DNA of 64,000 nucleotides from Puniceibacterium sp. IMCC21224. GTDB taxonomy: Bacteria > Pseudomonadota > Alphaproteobacteria > Rhodobacterales > Rhodobacteraceae. Both the position numbers and the translations under genes were made by a program. Numbering within the stretch: position 1 is the first letter of the stretch; each line of letters begins with the position of its first letter. Below, one piece after another: positions 40,887 to 59,721 of this stretch. The notes under the pieces are model-generated. The model made no database searches. It was not told the DNA's origin and was given only the letters and a program-made list of their open reading frames with translations. The DNA lies in NCBI RefSeq assembly GCF_001038505.1, contig NZ_LDPY01000001.1, positions 1,550,001-1,614,000 on the forward strand. Reading direction: 5' to 3'.

Positions 40887-40961
40887 TGGAGCGGGCGAGG
40901 CGATTCGAACGCCCGACCCTAACCTTGGCAAGGTTATGCTCTACCCCTGAGCTACGCCCGC
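40887..40961 (-). tRNA. tRNA-Gly (anticodon GCC), copy 1
   Basis: A 75-nt cloverleaf with encoded CCA. The acceptor GCGGGCG pairs with CGCCCGC, and the anticodon loop TTGCCAA reads GCC. Identical to the copy 98 bases away. Confidence 0.96.
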
Positions 40962-40984: not shown

Positions 40985-41059
40985 TGGAGCGGGCGAGGCG
41001 ATTCGAACGCCCGACCCTAACCTTGGCAAGGTTATGCTCTACCCCTGAGCTACGCCCGC
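40985..41059 (-). tRNA. tRNA-Gly (anticodon GCC), copy 2
   Basis: The same 75-nt gene as copy 1, upstream on the minus strand. Twenty-three bases separate the two, so they are probably one transcript processed into two tRNAs. Confidence 0.96.
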
Positions 41060-49791: not shown

Positions 49792-49911
49792 GTTCAAGCC
49801 CCACTACATCTTGTTGCCTTTCAGTAGTTCATCCATACGAAGCTAGCGTGAAGCGGGGGTTACAGCTGCGTGACGGTCTTGACCTGTGATGCAACGGGTC
49901 GTAGACCACAT

Positions 49912-49966
49912 GCTGTGGCGATTTGTTACCGGATTGCGGGCCACGTAAAACATACCGCTAAAGAGG
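49912..49966 (+). ncRNA. SAM-II riboswitch
   Basis: Matches the compact alphaproteobacterial SAM-II (SAM_alpha) aptamer. Stem P1 GTGGC/GCCAC encloses GATTTGTTACCGGATTGCGG, followed by ACGTAAAAC and the conserved CGCTAAAG that forms the pseudoknot. It lies 80 bases before metZ, the usual place for this class, and should lower metZ expression when SAM is abundant. Confidence 0.92.
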
Positions 49967-49981
49967 TCAGACGACGAGGGG

Positions 49982-50017
49982 ACCCCCTTTCGCTTGGCCG
50001 CGACGGGGGTTTTTTTG
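49982..50017 (+). terminator. Terminator/attenuator between the SAM-II aptamer and metZ
   Basis: The stem ACCCCC/GGGGGT with an inner TCGC/GCGA stem is followed by seven T. An upstream GGGG at 49978-49981 could compete for the CCCCC strand. This suggests control by premature termination, in addition to or instead of control of translation. Confidence 0.75.
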
Positions 50018-54162: not shown

Positions 54163-57100
54163 TTAGCCAAGTTCGGCCAGGCGGGCGAGGGCGGCGCTGA
54201 GCGCCGCGGCCTCTTCCTCACGCGCGGCCAGATTGTCGCGGGCTTCTTGTACAACCTCATCGGGGGCGCTGGCGGCGAATTTCGGATTGTTCAGCCGCCC
54301 CTTGAGACCGCCGATTTCCTTGGCCAGTTTGCCCAGACTCTTTTCCAGCCGGGATTTTTCCGCCTCAACGTCGATAATCCCGGCGAGCGGGAGACCAAAG
54401 ACCCCGCCTTCGACTGGGATGATCACACAACCTTTGGGGAACGCCTCAACCGAGTCGAGCGATTCGATCCGTGCAAGTCGTTTTATCAATGCCTCGTTGC
54501 GTTCCCATGCGGCCTGTCCGGCTGCGTCCAGATCCGTGACCAGCATCGGCACCTTGAGGCCGGCCGGGACATGCATCTGTGCGCGCGCGGACCGCACACC
54601 GTCAATCAATGAAATCACCCATGTCATCTCGCGATCTGCGACTGTATCCACCAGTTCGACGGGCGCATAGCTGGGCCAGTCGGCATGGATCAACAACTTG
54701 GTGCGCGGCGCGAGGGTGCCCCACAACTCTTCGGTGATAAAGGGCATGATCGGGTGAAGCAGGATCAGGCACTGGTCCAGAACCCAGGCCATCGTGGTGC
54801 GGGTTTCGGAAATGATTTCAGCGTCCTGGCTGTCAAACAGCGGCTTTGAGAATTCGACATACCAATCGCAGACCTTGCCCCAGACAAAGGCATACAGCGC
54901 GGTCGCCGCATCGTTGAAACGGTAGGTGTCCAGCGCGGCGTCAACCTCGGCCCGCACGCGCGCGGTTTCACCGATGATCCATTTGTTGGCGGTCTGTGAC
55001 GGGGTCGGGACCTGCGCGGTGCTTGCGACACGTCCCTCAAAGACGCTATTCATCTCCGCGAAACGGCAGGCATTCCACAGCTTGGTGCTGAAATTACGAT
55101 ATCCCGCGATGCGCTGAGTATCCAGCTTGAGCGCGCCACCAAGCGACGCCATGGCGGCATTGGTGAACCGTAAGGCGTCAGCGCCGAATTCGTCGATCAG
55201 CTCCAGCGGATCGACGACATTGCCCAGCGATTTCGACATCTTCTTGCCCCGGGCATCGCGCACAAGGCCGTGCAGGTAGACCGTCTTGAACGGCACCTGA
55301 TCGACGACCGTCAGCTGCATCATCATCATCCGCGCAACCCAGAAGAACAGGATGTCAGTACCAGTGATCAGGTCACTGGTCGGAAAGTATTTCTGCAACT
55401 CGGGCGTCTGTTCGGGCCAGCCAAGGGTGCCAATCGGCCAGAGACCGGACGAGAACCAAGTGTCGAGCACGTCGGAATCGCGCCAGACCGGATAGACCAG
55501 TTGGGTCGGATCCTGAGTGGCGGTATAATCGGCAAGGCTTTGTGCCAGTGTGTGAATTGCTGTTGCGCGGTCAGCGACCTCGACAACCCGGCAATGGTTG
55601 AGCGGGGTCGGCAAAGTGTCGAGCACGTCACTGAATTGTTTGCTGACGGATTCGAAATCCGACGCACAGTGAAAACGGTCCGTGCCTTCGATCAGGTCTT
55701 GATCCAGCAAAAGCCGCCCCATTTCGACCAGATCAAGCGCCCCGTCGCTTTCGTCATCGACAAAGCCGTGACGTTCGAGGTCAAGACCATACCAAACCGG
55801 AATTTGATGGCCCCACCAAAGTTGGCGGGAAATACACCAGGGTTCGATGTTTTCCAGCCAGTGGAAATAGACCTTTTTCTCGCGCTCGGGGATAATCTGC
55901 GTGTCACCATTTCTCACGGCATCCAGCGCCGGGCCGACGATCTTGTCGGTGTCGACAAACCACTGATCCGTCAGCATCGGTTCGATCACCACTTTGGAGC
56001 GGTCACCAAACGGCTGCATGATGGATTTGTTTTCAACATACGCAATGGTCGGCTGCATTTCTTCACGCGCGTCGGCATCCGCCGCTTCCCACGCAGGATT
56101 CGGCACCATGACGGCCAGCCCCTCGGCGGTGATGTCGGCAATCACCATGTCACGCGCCGCAAACCGGCCCAGCCCGCGATAGGCATCCGGGACAAGGTTG
56201 ATCGAATCAATCTCGGCCTCGGTAAAGGCCTGTCCGTTGACGATGGCCTGCGCTTTGGCGGCTTCGTCGGCGTAGGACGCACCATCGGCGCGCATCGCGG
56301 CGCGGGTGTCCATCAGGCGGTAACACGGAATATTGCCGCGTTTTGCCACGGCGTAGTCGTTGAAATCATGTGCGCCAGTGATCTTGACCGCGCCAGAGCC
56401 GAAATTGCGGTCGGGGTAGTCGTCGGTGATGATCGGAATCAGGCGGCGGTGTTCTTTGGGGCCGACTGGAATTTCGCACAGCTTACCGACGATCGGTGCA
56501 TAGCGCTCATCCAGCGGGTGAACGGCCACCGCGCCGTCGCCCAGCATGGTTTCGGGCCGTGTCGTGGCGATTGAGATATAGTCGCGCACCTCTTCGAACA
56601 GGACATTTCCGTCTTCGTTCTTTTCGACATAGGTATAGGTTTCACCACCCGCGAGCGGGTATTTGAAATGCCACATATGGCCTGCGACGTCGATATTCTC
56701 GACCTCAAGGTCCGAAATTGCGGTCTCAAAATGCGGGTCCCAGTTGACCAGCCGCTTGCCGCGATAGATCAGCCCCTTGGCGTACATCTCGACAAAGACC
56801 TTGATAACGGCGTCGTGGAAATTGCCGGCTTCACCTTCGGGGGCACCGGGTGCGCCGGACATGGTGAACGCCTCGCGCGACCAGTCGCAACTTGCACCAA
56901 GACGTTTGAGCTGGCCAATGATCGTGCCGCGCGATGCGATCTTTTGCTGCCAGACGCGCGACAAAAAGGCGTCGCGGCCCATATCGCGGCGCGTTGGTTC
57001 ACCGTTGGCGGCCATTTCACGTTCTGTCACCATCTGGGTGGCAATGCCGGCGTGATCGGTGCCGGGTTGCCACAGGGTGTCATAGCCCTGCATGCGTTTC

Positions 57101-57303
57101 CAGCGAACCAGGATGTCCTGCAACGTGTTGTTGAACGCATGCCCCATGTGCAGCGAACCCGTCACATTGGGCGGTGGGATCATGACCGAATAATGTTCCG
57201 CCCGCGAGGCGTTGGCCCCGGCCTTGAACGCGCCCGAGTCTTCCCAGGCCTGATAGAGGCGCGCCTCGGCCTCGGTCGCATCAAATGTCTTTTCCATAGC
57301 CAT
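54163..57303 (-). CDS. valS: Valyl-tRNA synthetase
   Basis: A 1046-residue class Ia aminoacyl-tRNA synthetase. HIGH motif: [20 protein letters not shown]. The editing domain follows ([17 protein letters not shown]). KMSKS motif: [15 protein letters not shown]. The anticodon-binding domain and a C-terminal coiled coil ([20 protein letters not shown]) complete it, with length as expected. Start ATG 57303 or the ATG two codons later. Confidence 0.97.
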
Positions 57304-57499: not shown

Positions 57500-57535
57500 A
57501 AAAAAAACGGCGACGCATGTTTCAGCGTCGCCGTT
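57500..57535 (-). terminator. Strong terminator ending the sRNA array
   Basis: A 9-bp stem (CGGCGACGC/GCGTCGCCG), extended by AA/TT, followed on the minus strand by eight T. It closes the transcript that starts before the DUF1127 gene at 58432. Confidence 0.93.
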
Positions 57536-57548
57536 CAAGTTCACGAAA

Positions 57549-58125
57549 CCCCAGGGAGGAGGAGAGGGGCCCCGAACTGTGATGGGACCAAGTGGGCCCC
57601 GAATGTCTGGTGCGGCGACACCAGGGAGGAGGAGAGGTGCCGCCGCGTTTCCGACCGGCCCAGGGAGGAGGAGAGGGCCGCCGAACTGTGGTGGGGTCCG
57701 ATGACCCCGGAATAGAAAGGCGCGGCGACGCCAGGGAGGAGGAGAGGCGCCGCCGCAGTTTCGAACGGCCCAGGGAGGAGGAGAGGGCCTTCGATACCGA
57801 TGGGACCATGTGGGCCCCGAATGTCTGGTGCGGCGACACCAGGGAGGAGGAGAGGTGCCGCCGCGTTTCCGACCGGCCCAGGGAGGAGGAGAGGGCCGCC
57901 GAACTGTGGTGGGGTCCGATGACCCCGGAATAGAAAGGCGCGGCGACGCCAGGGAGGAGGAGAGGCGCCGCCGCAGTTTCGAACGGCCCAGGGAGGAGGA
58001 GAGGGCCTTCGATACCGATGGGACCATGTGGGCCCCGAATGTCTGGTGCGGCGACACCAGGGAGGAGGAGAGGTGCCGCCGCGTTTCCGACCGGCCCAGG
58101 GAGGAGGAGAGGGCCGCCGAACTGT
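57549..58125 (-). ncRNA. Array of eleven anti-Shine-Dalgarno hairpins (CcsR/cuckoo-type sRNAs)
   Basis: On the minus strand CCTCTCCTCCTCCCTGG occurs eleven times (plus-strand starts 57551, 57621, 57660, 57731, 57770, 57839, 57878, 57949, 57988, 58057, 58096), each in the loop of a GC stem such as GGCCC/GGGCC. Start distances alternate 69-71 and 39, so hairpins come as five pairs plus one. CcsR1-4 of Rhodobacter sphaeroides are two-hairpin sRNAs with CUCCUCCC loops, made downstream of the DUF1127 gene ccaF1. The same order is seen here, with more copies. Confidence 0.88.
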
Positions 58126-58128
58126 GGT
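57581..58128. repeat. 218-bp higher-order tandem repeat
   Basis: Units at 57581-57798 and 57799-58016 differ at one position I can see (57591 A against 57809 T). A third partial unit runs 58017-58128. Each full unit carries four hairpins, that is two sRNA pairs. Such near-identity points to recent amplification. Confidence 0.9.
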
Positions 58129-58213
58129 AGAGATCTAGGATCTCCTGTGTTCTTCAGGGTGACGGACTGTCCGTCACCGGGGTGCAGCGGGTATATCCCG
58201 CCGCGCCGTCAGG
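58129..58213 (-). other. Structured spacer between the DUF1127 gene and the sRNA array
   Basis: Three small hairpins follow the DUF1127 stop on the minus strand: GCGGG/CCCGC (58187-58201), GGTGACGG/CCGTCACC with loop ACTGT (58158-58178) and AGATC/GATCT (58131-58143). They could be processing signals that separate mRNA from sRNAs. Confidence 0.45.
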
Positions 58214-58432
58214 TCATGCCCCGTAGGCTGCCTCTTGCGCAATGCTGCGGATCGACGACCGGCTGATGCCCAGATCTGCCAGTTCGCGGTTGCTCAGTGC
58301 TTCGAGTTCACGCAGGGTCTGGTTGTAGGTCCGGCGCTGGGCCAACTGCAGGCGCAGTTTGGTCAGAAGCGCGGAAAATACGGAGACGTCAGTGCCTTGT
58401 GCGGCGGATGTGATGTGCGTTGCGTATGCCAT
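58214..58432 (-). CDS. DUF1127 protein, CcaF1-like
   Basis: A 72-residue protein. The N-terminal half MAYATHITSAAQGTDVSVFS is variable; the C-terminal part RRTYNQTLRELEALSNRELA-DLGISRSSI is DUF1127. In R. sphaeroides the protein of this kind encoded before the CcsR sRNAs (CcaF1) is an RNA-binding factor. I choose ATG 58432; the frame upstream of it is noncoding. The linked hairpin array and promoter type support the CcaF1 comparison. Confidence 0.85.
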   Translation of the reverse strand: MAYATHITSAAQGTDVSVFSALLTKLRLQLAQRRTYNQTLRELEALSNRELADLGISRSSIRSIAQEAAYGA

Positions 58433-58474
58433 TTTAGGTTCGCCTGTTTCGCTTTGTTCGTTTCGTTGAGTTGA

Positions 58475-58502
58475 AGATGGGGCAATTGCTGCAGTTGCAC
58501 AA
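58475..58502 (-). promoter_or_regulatory. Candidate RpoH-type promoter of the DUF1127-sRNA locus
   Basis: On the minus strand TTGTGC (58502-58497), 15 bases, then CCCATCT (58481-58475). The -10 fits the heat-shock sigma pattern CCCATNT; the -35 keeps only TTG. The CcsR locus of R. sphaeroides is under RpoHI/RpoHII. Start of transcription would be near 58467. Confidence 0.5.
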
Positions 58503-58656
58503 TAGCTTTCGGCCTCAATGCTGCTATGCAGAAAACGCATGGACTTTTTTGTTTGTGTAGTAGCGTTTTGCCTGAAATGTGTGCGTTGAATGAACCGCTG
58601 TTTCCAGGTGATGGGCAATTGCCCGATGATTTGGCAATTATGCAAGGAGAAGAGGC

Positions 58657-59721
58657 ATGAGTGATATTCGGACCGATGTGCAGGCTGCGCTGGCGCGGCT
58701 TGCGCTGCCTGACGGAGGCGACCTGATTGCGCGGGATATGATTCGCGCCTTGACGATCGAGGGTGGCGCCGTGCGTTTTGTCATCGAGGCACCGTCGCCC
58801 GAGGTCGCGCGGCAGATGGAGCCTTTGCGCCGCGCCGCCGAGGCCATTGTCGCCGGGGTGCCCGGCGTCGATAGCGTATCAGCGGTCCTGACAGCCCATG
58901 CAGCCGAGAAAAAGCCGCCATCGCTCAAGATCGGGCGTCACGCAGAGCCACAGGCCGGGCCGACCCGCCCCGATGGCGTGGCAAAGGTGATCGCGATTGG
59001 ATCGGGCAAAGGCGGCGTTGGCAAATCGACGGTGTCGTCGAACCTGGCTGTGGCCTTGGCGCGGGCGGGGCGGCGTGTTGGTCTGCTGGACGCGGATATA
59101 TACGGTCCCAGTCAGCCACGCATGATGGGCGTGAACCAGCGCCCCGCCAGCCCGGATGGCAAGACAATTCACCCGCTGCACGCGCATGGTGTCACGCTGA
59201 TGTCGATCGGCCTGATGCTGCCCGAGGACAAGGCCGTCGTCTGGCGCGGTCCGATGCTGATGGGGGCGTTGCAACAGATGCTGGGGCAGGTGCTCTGGGG
59301 CGAACTGGATATTCTGCTGGTCGATTTGCCGCCCGGCACCGGCGATGTGGCGATGACCCTGTGCCAAAAGACCGATCTGGCGGGGGCGATTGTGGTGAGC
59401 ACGCCGCAGGATGTGTCGCTGATCGACGCGCGCAAGGCGCTGGACATGTTCTCGACACTCAAGACCCCGGTTCTGGGGTTGATCGAGAATATGTCGCTGT
59501 TTGTCTGCCCGCACTGCGGAGGAGAGAGCCACATCTTTGGCCATGGCGGTGTGCGCGAAGAAGCTGAGCGGCTCGGCTTGCCGCTGCTTGCGGAACTGCC
59601 GATTGATCTGGAAACCCGGTTGTCGGGTGATTCAGGGCGTCCGGTGGCGGCAGGCGACGGGGAGATGGCTGCGGCCTATGCCCGGCTGGCCGAGACACTG
59701 ATCGCGCAAGGCGTGGCCTGA
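58657..59721 (+). CDS. apbC: Mrp/NBP35-family iron-sulfur carrier ATPase
   Basis: A 354-residue P-loop protein that carries and transfers 4Fe-4S clusters. An N-terminal MIP18/DUF59-like domain (residues 1-85, DIRTDVQAALARLALPDGGD) is followed by the deviant Walker A GSGKGGVGKSTVSSNLAVAL, ILLVDLPPGTGDVAMTLCQK, and CxxC in FVCPHCGGESHIFG. It is transcribed away from the DUF1127 gene; AAGGAGAAG precedes the ATG. Confidence 0.94.
   Translation: MSDIRTDVQAALARLALPDGGDLIARDMIRALTIEGGAVRFVIEAPSPEVARQMEPLRRAAEAIVAGVPGVDSVSAVLTAHAAEKKPPSLKIGRHAEPQAGPTRPDGVAKVIAIGSGKGGVGKSTVSSNLAVALARAGRRVGLLDADIYGPSQPRMMGVNQRPASPDGKTIHPLHAHGVTLMSIGLMLPEDKAVVWRGPMLMGALQQMLGQVLWGELDILLVDLPPGTGDVAMTLCQKTDLAGAIVVSTPQDVSLIDARKALDMFSTLKTPVLGLIENMSLFVCPHCGGESHIFGHGGVREEAERLGLPLLAELPIDLETRLSGDSGRPVAAGDGEMAAAYARLAETLIAQGVA

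Follow-up and report, generated by a model that had tools for sequence, protein, structure and literature searches.

Among the closest described relatives of the locus reported here is the set of CcsR small RNAs behind the DUF1127 gene ccaF1 in Rhodobacter sphaeroides. In the excerpts available of four papers, the CcsR RNAs are described in connection with a precursor, RNase E, PNPase, Hfq and the sigma factors RpoHI and RpoHII (PMC10253847, PMC8625941, PMC8307010, PMC7866481). In the same excerpts, the ccaF1 promoter is assigned to RpoHI/RpoHII (PMC10253847), and CcsR is stated to affect the pyruvate dehydrogenase (PDH) complex (PMC8307010). Loops of the CCUCCUCCC type are also found in SmelA075 and SmelA099, which have three and four hairpins, respectively, according to the accessible part of the report (PMC3927594). 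MmgR/suhB is an alphaproteobacterial sRNA family with a 10-mer resembling an anti-Shine-Dalgarno (anti-SD) sequence (PMC12559287, in part). In S. meliloti, the sRNA MmgR is repressed by PhaR, and two palindromes flank the −35 region at phaP1 and phaP2; the binding sequence determined for PhaR of R. sphaeroides is CTGCNNNGCAG (both from the portion at hand of PMC12542648).

The window, that is, the whole 64-kb stretch of DNA that was analysed, corresponds to positions 1550001-1614000 of contig C1 (4.14 Mb) in a nine-contig genome of 5.56 Mb. On its minus strand, a promoter block (58542-58474), a DUF1127 gene, a structured spacer, eleven anti-SD loops and a terminator follow one another in this order. 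This locus is very probably the DUF1127-CcsR (cuckoo, CIN1) operon of the Rhodobacteraceae in its Puniceibacterium-group copy, the RNAs of which would act on Shine-Dalgarno targets according to their dose. Three features of CcsR/CIN1 loci are present. The DUF1127 gene lies directly upstream of the array on the same strand (58214-58432), and its ccaF1-like product of 72 aa matches PF06568 at E 2.9e-10 and was aligned with 20 array-linked relatives. The conserved CCUCCUCCC loop is carried on unconserved stems. The array is closed by a Rho-independent terminator (57505-57536, minus strand) with a 12-pair stem and a T run. The gene before the array and the strong terminator behind it had both been predicted originally, and both are there.

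The neighbourhood also agrees with orthology. A divergent Mrp/ApbC gene (58657-59721, plus strand; PF10609) is the syntenic marker on one side, and a ValS gene (54163-57303, minus strand; identified with Pfam) lies downstream. The comparison set consists of 80 loci fetched by the DUF1127 protein alone; they are the best 80 of 544 relatives and lean to close relatives. In 69 of these best 80 loci, Mrp is within 1.5 kb of DUF1127, and ValS is present in 16; the window has both. Two other RNA features of the window are a SAM_alpha riboswitch (49905-49982, plus strand; RF00521, 59.2 bits) and a tandem tRNA duplicate on the minus strand (40890-40961 and 40988-41059), the copies of which have identical Rfam alignments and are 26 bp apart.

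The Rfam model CcsR1 (RF02791) aligns over all of its 83 positions with each of the five loop pairs, with scores of 54.8-58.1 bits and E-values of about 1e-12 (2e-12 to 2e-13). None of the five modules reaches the gathering cut-off of 65.3 bits, the best being 58.1; at the gathering cut-offs, Rfam gave no match at the array locus, and CcsR1 was seen after the threshold had been lowered. This cut-off is considered to be narrow, because 15 of 395 genomes of the family pass it; at E ≤ 1e-3, the model is found in 331 of the 395. Since the scores lie under a cut-off that 15 of 395 genomes pass, the modules are classed as CcsR-like and not as curated RF02791 matches. A further match, at C1:183415, was discarded, as it is without a CUCCUCC loop. 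The full-length alignments, the DUF1127 gene upstream and the sigma32-like −10 described below agree with the original prediction that this is the same locus as ccaF1-CcsR.

Eleven copies of CCTCTCCTCCTCCCTGG, all identical, are located on the minus strand within 58112-57551, and there are none on the plus strand. The first bases are at 58112, 58073, 58004, 57965, 57894, 57855, 57786, 57747, 57676, 57637, and 57567. Outside the array, the 64-kb window has the loop core CTCCTCCC at one further minus-strand position, 41743. The spacings of 39, 69, 39, 71, 39, 69, 39, 71, 39 and 70 correspond to five pairs plus one, exactly as predicted at the outset. Folded alone, each copy gives a hairpin of −16.4 to −25.5 kcal/mol that has a 13-nt loop, so the predicted placement in hairpin loops is upheld; when the whole transcript is folded, the eleventh and last hairpin pairs differently. 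The five two-hairpin modules, all on the minus strand, are at 58043-58122, 57825-57904 and 57607-57686 (modules 1, 3, and 5; RF02791 54.8 bits each) and at 57935-58016 and 57717-57798 (modules 2 and 4; 58.1 bits each). The eleventh, single loop (57551-57567) stands before the terminator, and RF02791 scores 23.4 bits over 57502-57577.

The spacer between the stop codon and the array (58128-58216, minus strand) folds as three hairpins (MFE −41.9). Such a distance from the stop to the first loop, 98-123 nt, is also seen in loci L038, L040, and L046; most other loci have about 20-33 nt, and L039 of the same genus has 26 nt. In every long linker of the window array there is a third, separate hairpin. 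The one between modules 1 and 2 (58020-58036) recurs at 57802-57818 and, with a single change, at 57584-57600; the one between modules 2 and 3 (GGGGTC-ATCG-GACCCC, 57911-57926) has a copy at 57693-57708. All of these are on the minus strand.

The spacings and the linker hairpin recur in the relatives. In a survey of spacings, from which six loci repeating the window's array were skipped and in which some arrays are still entered twice, two distances were found repeatedly, one of about 39 between the loops of a pair and one of 60-95 from pair to pair; some genera have the short one only. The long linkers have a hairpin of variable sequence. Against dinucleotide shuffles, 81 of 86 distinct linkers gave z < −1 (mean −2.5), and the other five had a z of −0.9 or above; identical linkers had been removed, and 18 loci, for the most part duplicates of an array that appears elsewhere, had been skipped. 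The stems were compared in 620 distinct hairpins, selected by the loop core CTCCTCCC, from 78 loci (from the best 80 of 544, and the window). Their arms pair over a mean of 8.8 contiguous bases, as against 4.4 when the 3' arms were shuffled (the highest mean in 20 shuffles was 4.52). Since there are 280 distinct 5' arms and the arms on average pair twice as far with their own partner as with a shuffled one, the stems vary yet stay paired. The hairpin array is not a product of chance.

The promoter block on the minus strand is composed of several elements, some of them overlapping. An outer palindrome, CATGC-N7-GCATA (58525-58541), overlaps CTGCATAGCAG (58521-58531), which agrees with the PhaR site published for R. 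sphaeroides and is a predicted operator. It is followed by TTGTGCAACTGCAGCA (58487-58502), which contains the −35 region TTGTGC (58502-58497) and an overlapping GCAGCA element, and by the sigma32/RpoH-like −10 CCCCATCTT (58474-58482), 14 nt after TTGTGC. CCCCATCTT and its 14-nt distance from TTGTGC are of the RpoH/sigma32 type, and the RpoH-like −10 that was proposed originally seems to be right. TTGTGC-N14-CCCCATCTT is conserved in the relatives, the −10 is part of the block consensus, and TTGTGC itself is found in 78 of the best 80 of 544 loci. In distant genera, the block has in common YATGC-N7-GCATR, an overlapping CTGCATRGCAG, and then ATTGTGCANNTGCAGCA and CCNATNTT.

This arrangement suggests that the PHB-binding repressor PhaR controls the operon as well, and has done so ancestrally, which would be compatible with the use of RpoH. 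We regard this as rather likely, binding being predicted from the operator sequence. The exact CTGCNNNGCAG is present upstream of 45 of the best 80 of 544 loci, as compared with 6 of 602 control segments from the same loci (shuffle mean, 0.48), and the distance from the palindrome to TTGTGC is 28-29 in 35 of the 42 pairs counted in that set. The same sequence is the R. sphaeroides PhaR site, and the repression of MmgR by PhaR in S. meliloti, both cited above from the available portion of PMC12542648, provides a precedent. The window genome has PhaR, and CTGCGTCGCAG stands before the neighbouring phasin-like gene (24.5 bits, just under the Pfam cut-off of 24.9). On the other hand, the exact CTGC palindrome is absent in 35 of the best 80 of 544 loci, a set chosen by the DUF1127 protein alone; three Paracoccus loci are among those without the inner pattern and have TGCAGAA instead. 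Moreover, two bases separate the TGCA and YGCA halves of the inner element, in contrast to one in the S. meliloti consensus.

Genomes without detected PhaR were compared in this respect. PhaR (PF07879) was detected in 385 of 395 genomes of the family, and six of the ten without it have the array pattern. A further 41 loci served for comparison; these are 44 upstream regions minus L071 and L083, which were cut or had a misplaced start, and L025, which is PhaR-less and was counted separately. The outer palindrome YATGC-N7-GCAT is present in 70 of the best 80 of 544 loci, in 37 of the 41 further loci, and in all six without detected PhaR. TTG-N6-8-GCAGCA is present in 73 of those 80 and in 39 of the 41, as opposed to one of the six. 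The exact CTGC-N3-GCAG is present in 45 of those 80, in 30 of the 41, and in none of the six. For GCAGCA, 1/6 against 39/41 gives a Fisher p of 7.9e-5 in a test that ignores relatedness. The score of the whole block is −28 to −0.5 in five of the PhaR-less loci and 60.7 in G137, compared with at most −6.0 in controls and 26.6-75.9 in the 78 loci (from the best 80 of 544) that trained the matrix. Three of the six could be placed on an mrp tree, the other three having no mrp nearby. They are not each other's nearest neighbours: G007 pairs with L021 and G306 with L145, and G165 lies apart, with moderate support.

It should be mentioned that a coarser operator pattern, fixed beforehand, matched four of the six PhaR-less genomes and did not separate the two groups; it was rejected as a discriminator, and this outcome counts against PhaR control in the form in which it was initially proposed. 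The comparison of inner and outer elements is post hoc, because the split was made after the six sequences had been read. In addition, two of the six genomes belong to one genus, and G137 keeps the operator with no PhaR match; with 590 contigs and a completeness of 92%, this assembly may fail to include its PhaR. Taken as a whole, most array loci from genomes in which PhaR was not detected have a decayed form of the predicted PhaR-type operator, and a second, outer palindrome, YATGC-N7-GCATR, is conserved independently of PhaR.

The window genome carries another anti-SD RNA with the same pair of promoter elements, which further favours PhaR control. It is a solo two-hairpin RNA on the minus strand of contig C7 (88874-88958, locus L006), in which a T run comes directly after the second hairpin. 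Its promoter has CTGCACTGCAG and TTGTGCGACTGCAGCA, and a relative in another genome (G002:C12:33119, L056) has CTGCATTGCAG. Its ar14 score of 57.6 bits falls narrowly short of the cut-off (58.8). Exact ATTGTGCANNNGCAGCA occurs in the genome only at the array promoter, and the C7 RNA is one of six one-mismatch matches. Two scans that allowed two mismatches were too loose to be used: TGCTGCNNNGCAGCA gave 782 matches a strand (control, 266), and ATTGTGCANNNGCAGCA gave 38 (controls, 10 and 3). A site at C1:2417661 was set aside, as it falls inside a 416-aa frame. Further sites at C1:832365 and C1:2743209 were read as sequence only, and a perfect TGCTGCATGGCAGCA palindrome lies at positions 26449-26463 of contig C8.

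If PhaR acts here, PhaR free of PHB would occupy CTGCATAGCAG and the GCAGCA element overlapping the −35 and hold the operon down. Formation of granules would titrate PhaR, so that the anti-SD RNAs might rise and carbon uptake and PDH might fall. The oxidative-stress sRNA system of R. sphaeroides would then gain a carbon-storage input, which would give a reason for the effects of CcsR on the PDH complex and C1 metabolism and a parallel to the control of MmgR in S. meliloti. We lean slightly towards a wider statement, namely that DUF1127-CcsR is a PhaR operon across Rhodobacteraceae, on which storage and heat or oxidative stress converge, with a second regulator on the outer palindrome and the C7 RNA in the regulon. 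In a literature search that did not extend to the founding CcsR, CcaF1 and cuckoo papers, PhaR was not found together with CcsR plus Rhodobacter sphaeroides, CcsR1 or CcaF1 as whole words; one paper has both PhaR and DUF1127, in unrelated passages.

The original prediction regarded the array as enlarged, with a doubled CUCCUCC that might pair more strongly or more widely, that is, as a functionally distinct variant. This seems very unlikely. The four CcsR of R. sphaeroides would equal about eight loops, because the RF02791 model is a two-loop unit, and eleven exceeds this number. However, among the 77 loci of the best 80 of 544 that are uncut by a contig end (L093, L137, and L150 are cut and were left out), the median is 9 loops (quartiles, 6 and 10.5; maximum, 15), and 19 of the 77 have at least 11; two have none. 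Eleven loops is an ordinary, upper-normal size for the family, and the claim of enlargement is not supported. Locus L071 of another genome (G177:C1, about 334949-336509) has 26 anti-SD loops in a single array, with 25 paired matches and a repeating three-hairpin unit. Nor does the doubled loop mark a variant: the longer CTCCTCCTCCC is present in 388 of the 620 hairpins (78 loci, from the best 80 of 544 and the window), and the second loop of the RF02791 consensus already reads UCCUCCUCCC. As for stronger pairing, it was borne out for GAGGAGGAG, with a computed duplex energy of −19.2 for the long loop and −14.0 for the short one, but not for GGGAGGAGACC, with −17.5 for both.

The paired-loop pattern occurs in 340 of 395 genomes of the family, the reversed control being above zero in some. 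Some genomes have more than one array: G017 has two (L043, L044), each with a DUF1127 match upstream, and G404 has eight paired matches on each strand. At locus L234 of G306 (around 1300-1620), the promoter block runs straight into an anti-SD array and no DUF1127 match was found in the 3-kb locus; the array appears to be kept there without the DUF1127 protein.

The window array contains a tandem repeat (57592-58128, minus strand) with a 218-bp four-loop unit: 58128-57810 is identical to 57910-57592, an exact block of 319 bp at lag 218. The half-units A and B are 78% alike. The repeat points to a recent duplication, and a seven-loop ancestor with a single 218-bp duplication would suffice. Neither this repeat nor the linker hairpins had been part of the original prediction. 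The copy number depends on the assembly through these exact repeats, and the 319-bp block exceeds usual short reads; however, the array is internal to a contig of 4.14 Mb, one of nine, and P. antarcticum likewise has 11 loops (P. sediminis and P. confluentis have 9), so a count of eleven produced by misassembly is very improbable. That the repeats encode an Arg/Glu-rich or Pro/Ser-rich repetitive protein, with incidental hairpins, can hardly be right: open frames of up to 203 aa do span the array, but neither the period of 218 nor the spacings of 71 and 70 can be divided by three, and the frames therefore shift between units (which also disfavours the plus-strand protein from the Arg/Glu-rich frames that the original prediction had named as its counter-evidence), and the spacings differ among relatives while the stem pairing stays.

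Exact complements of the loop are located at translation starts. GGGAGGAG is found 3-9 nt before an ATG at 36 sites in the genome, as compared with two for a reversed control; one of the 36 is merely the complement of the C7 RNA's own loop. Thirty of the 36 sites were fetched and 29 frames were scanned, one site with an 8-aa frame being left out. Thirteen of the 29 are uptake components above the Pfam cut-off (six DctP, one DctQ, three TctC, and three other periplasmic or solute-binding proteins), a further TctC match is under its cut-off, and PDH E1-alpha (TIGR03182, 506 bits) is also among them. These uptake proteins and PDH E1-alpha are predicted targets of the array and are offered as leads.

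Returning to the DUF1127-CcsR operon, the RpoH-type promoter would give a single transcript, containing the DUF1127 message, five two-hairpin modules and the terminal single hairpin and ending at the intrinsic terminator. If processing follows that in R. sphaeroides, RNase E would cut this precursor and PNPase would trim its 3' ends, with the linker hairpins perhaps setting a limit to the trimming. The loops (UCUCCUCCUCCCU) might then base-pair with Shine-Dalgarno sequences of the GGGAGGAG type and keep many mRNAs from being translated, chiefly those of the uptake binding proteins and PDH E1-alpha. Tandem duplication may alter copy number, and so dose rather than function. The third linker hairpin, the conserved PhaR-type promoter block and the exact loop complements before uptake genes and PDH E1-alpha are put forward as new here, with their novelty in print unproven.

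Of the known systems compared, MmgR/suhB (RF00519) has a promoter that is repressed by PhaR in S. meliloti (PMC12542648), and the last hairpin and terminator of the window match it weakly, at 28.2 bits against a cut-off of 41; the array is not a member. With SmelA075 and SmelA099, the array has the CCUCCUCCC loops in common, and its modules match ar14 (RF02344) at 47.1-47.7 bits, below the cut-off of 58.8. Like the cuckoo RNA family of the CIN1 locus, it has, behind a DUF1127 gene, hairpins whose stems vary and whose anti-SD loop does not. The cuckoo motif is given as 2-4 hairpins in the accessible part of PMC4504443, whereas the window shows a longer tandem count and the linker hairpin, which are perhaps already published. 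The features common to the array and CcsR1-4/ccaF1 of R. sphaeroides (RF02791) are a DUF1127 gene, two-hairpin modules in tandem with CCUCCUCCC loops, an RpoH-type promoter and an intrinsic terminator. The window differs in its scores under the Rfam cut-off, in the long structured spacer after the DUF1127 stop, and in having five modules and a single hairpin in place of four modules. The array adds one further species to this known sRNA operon.
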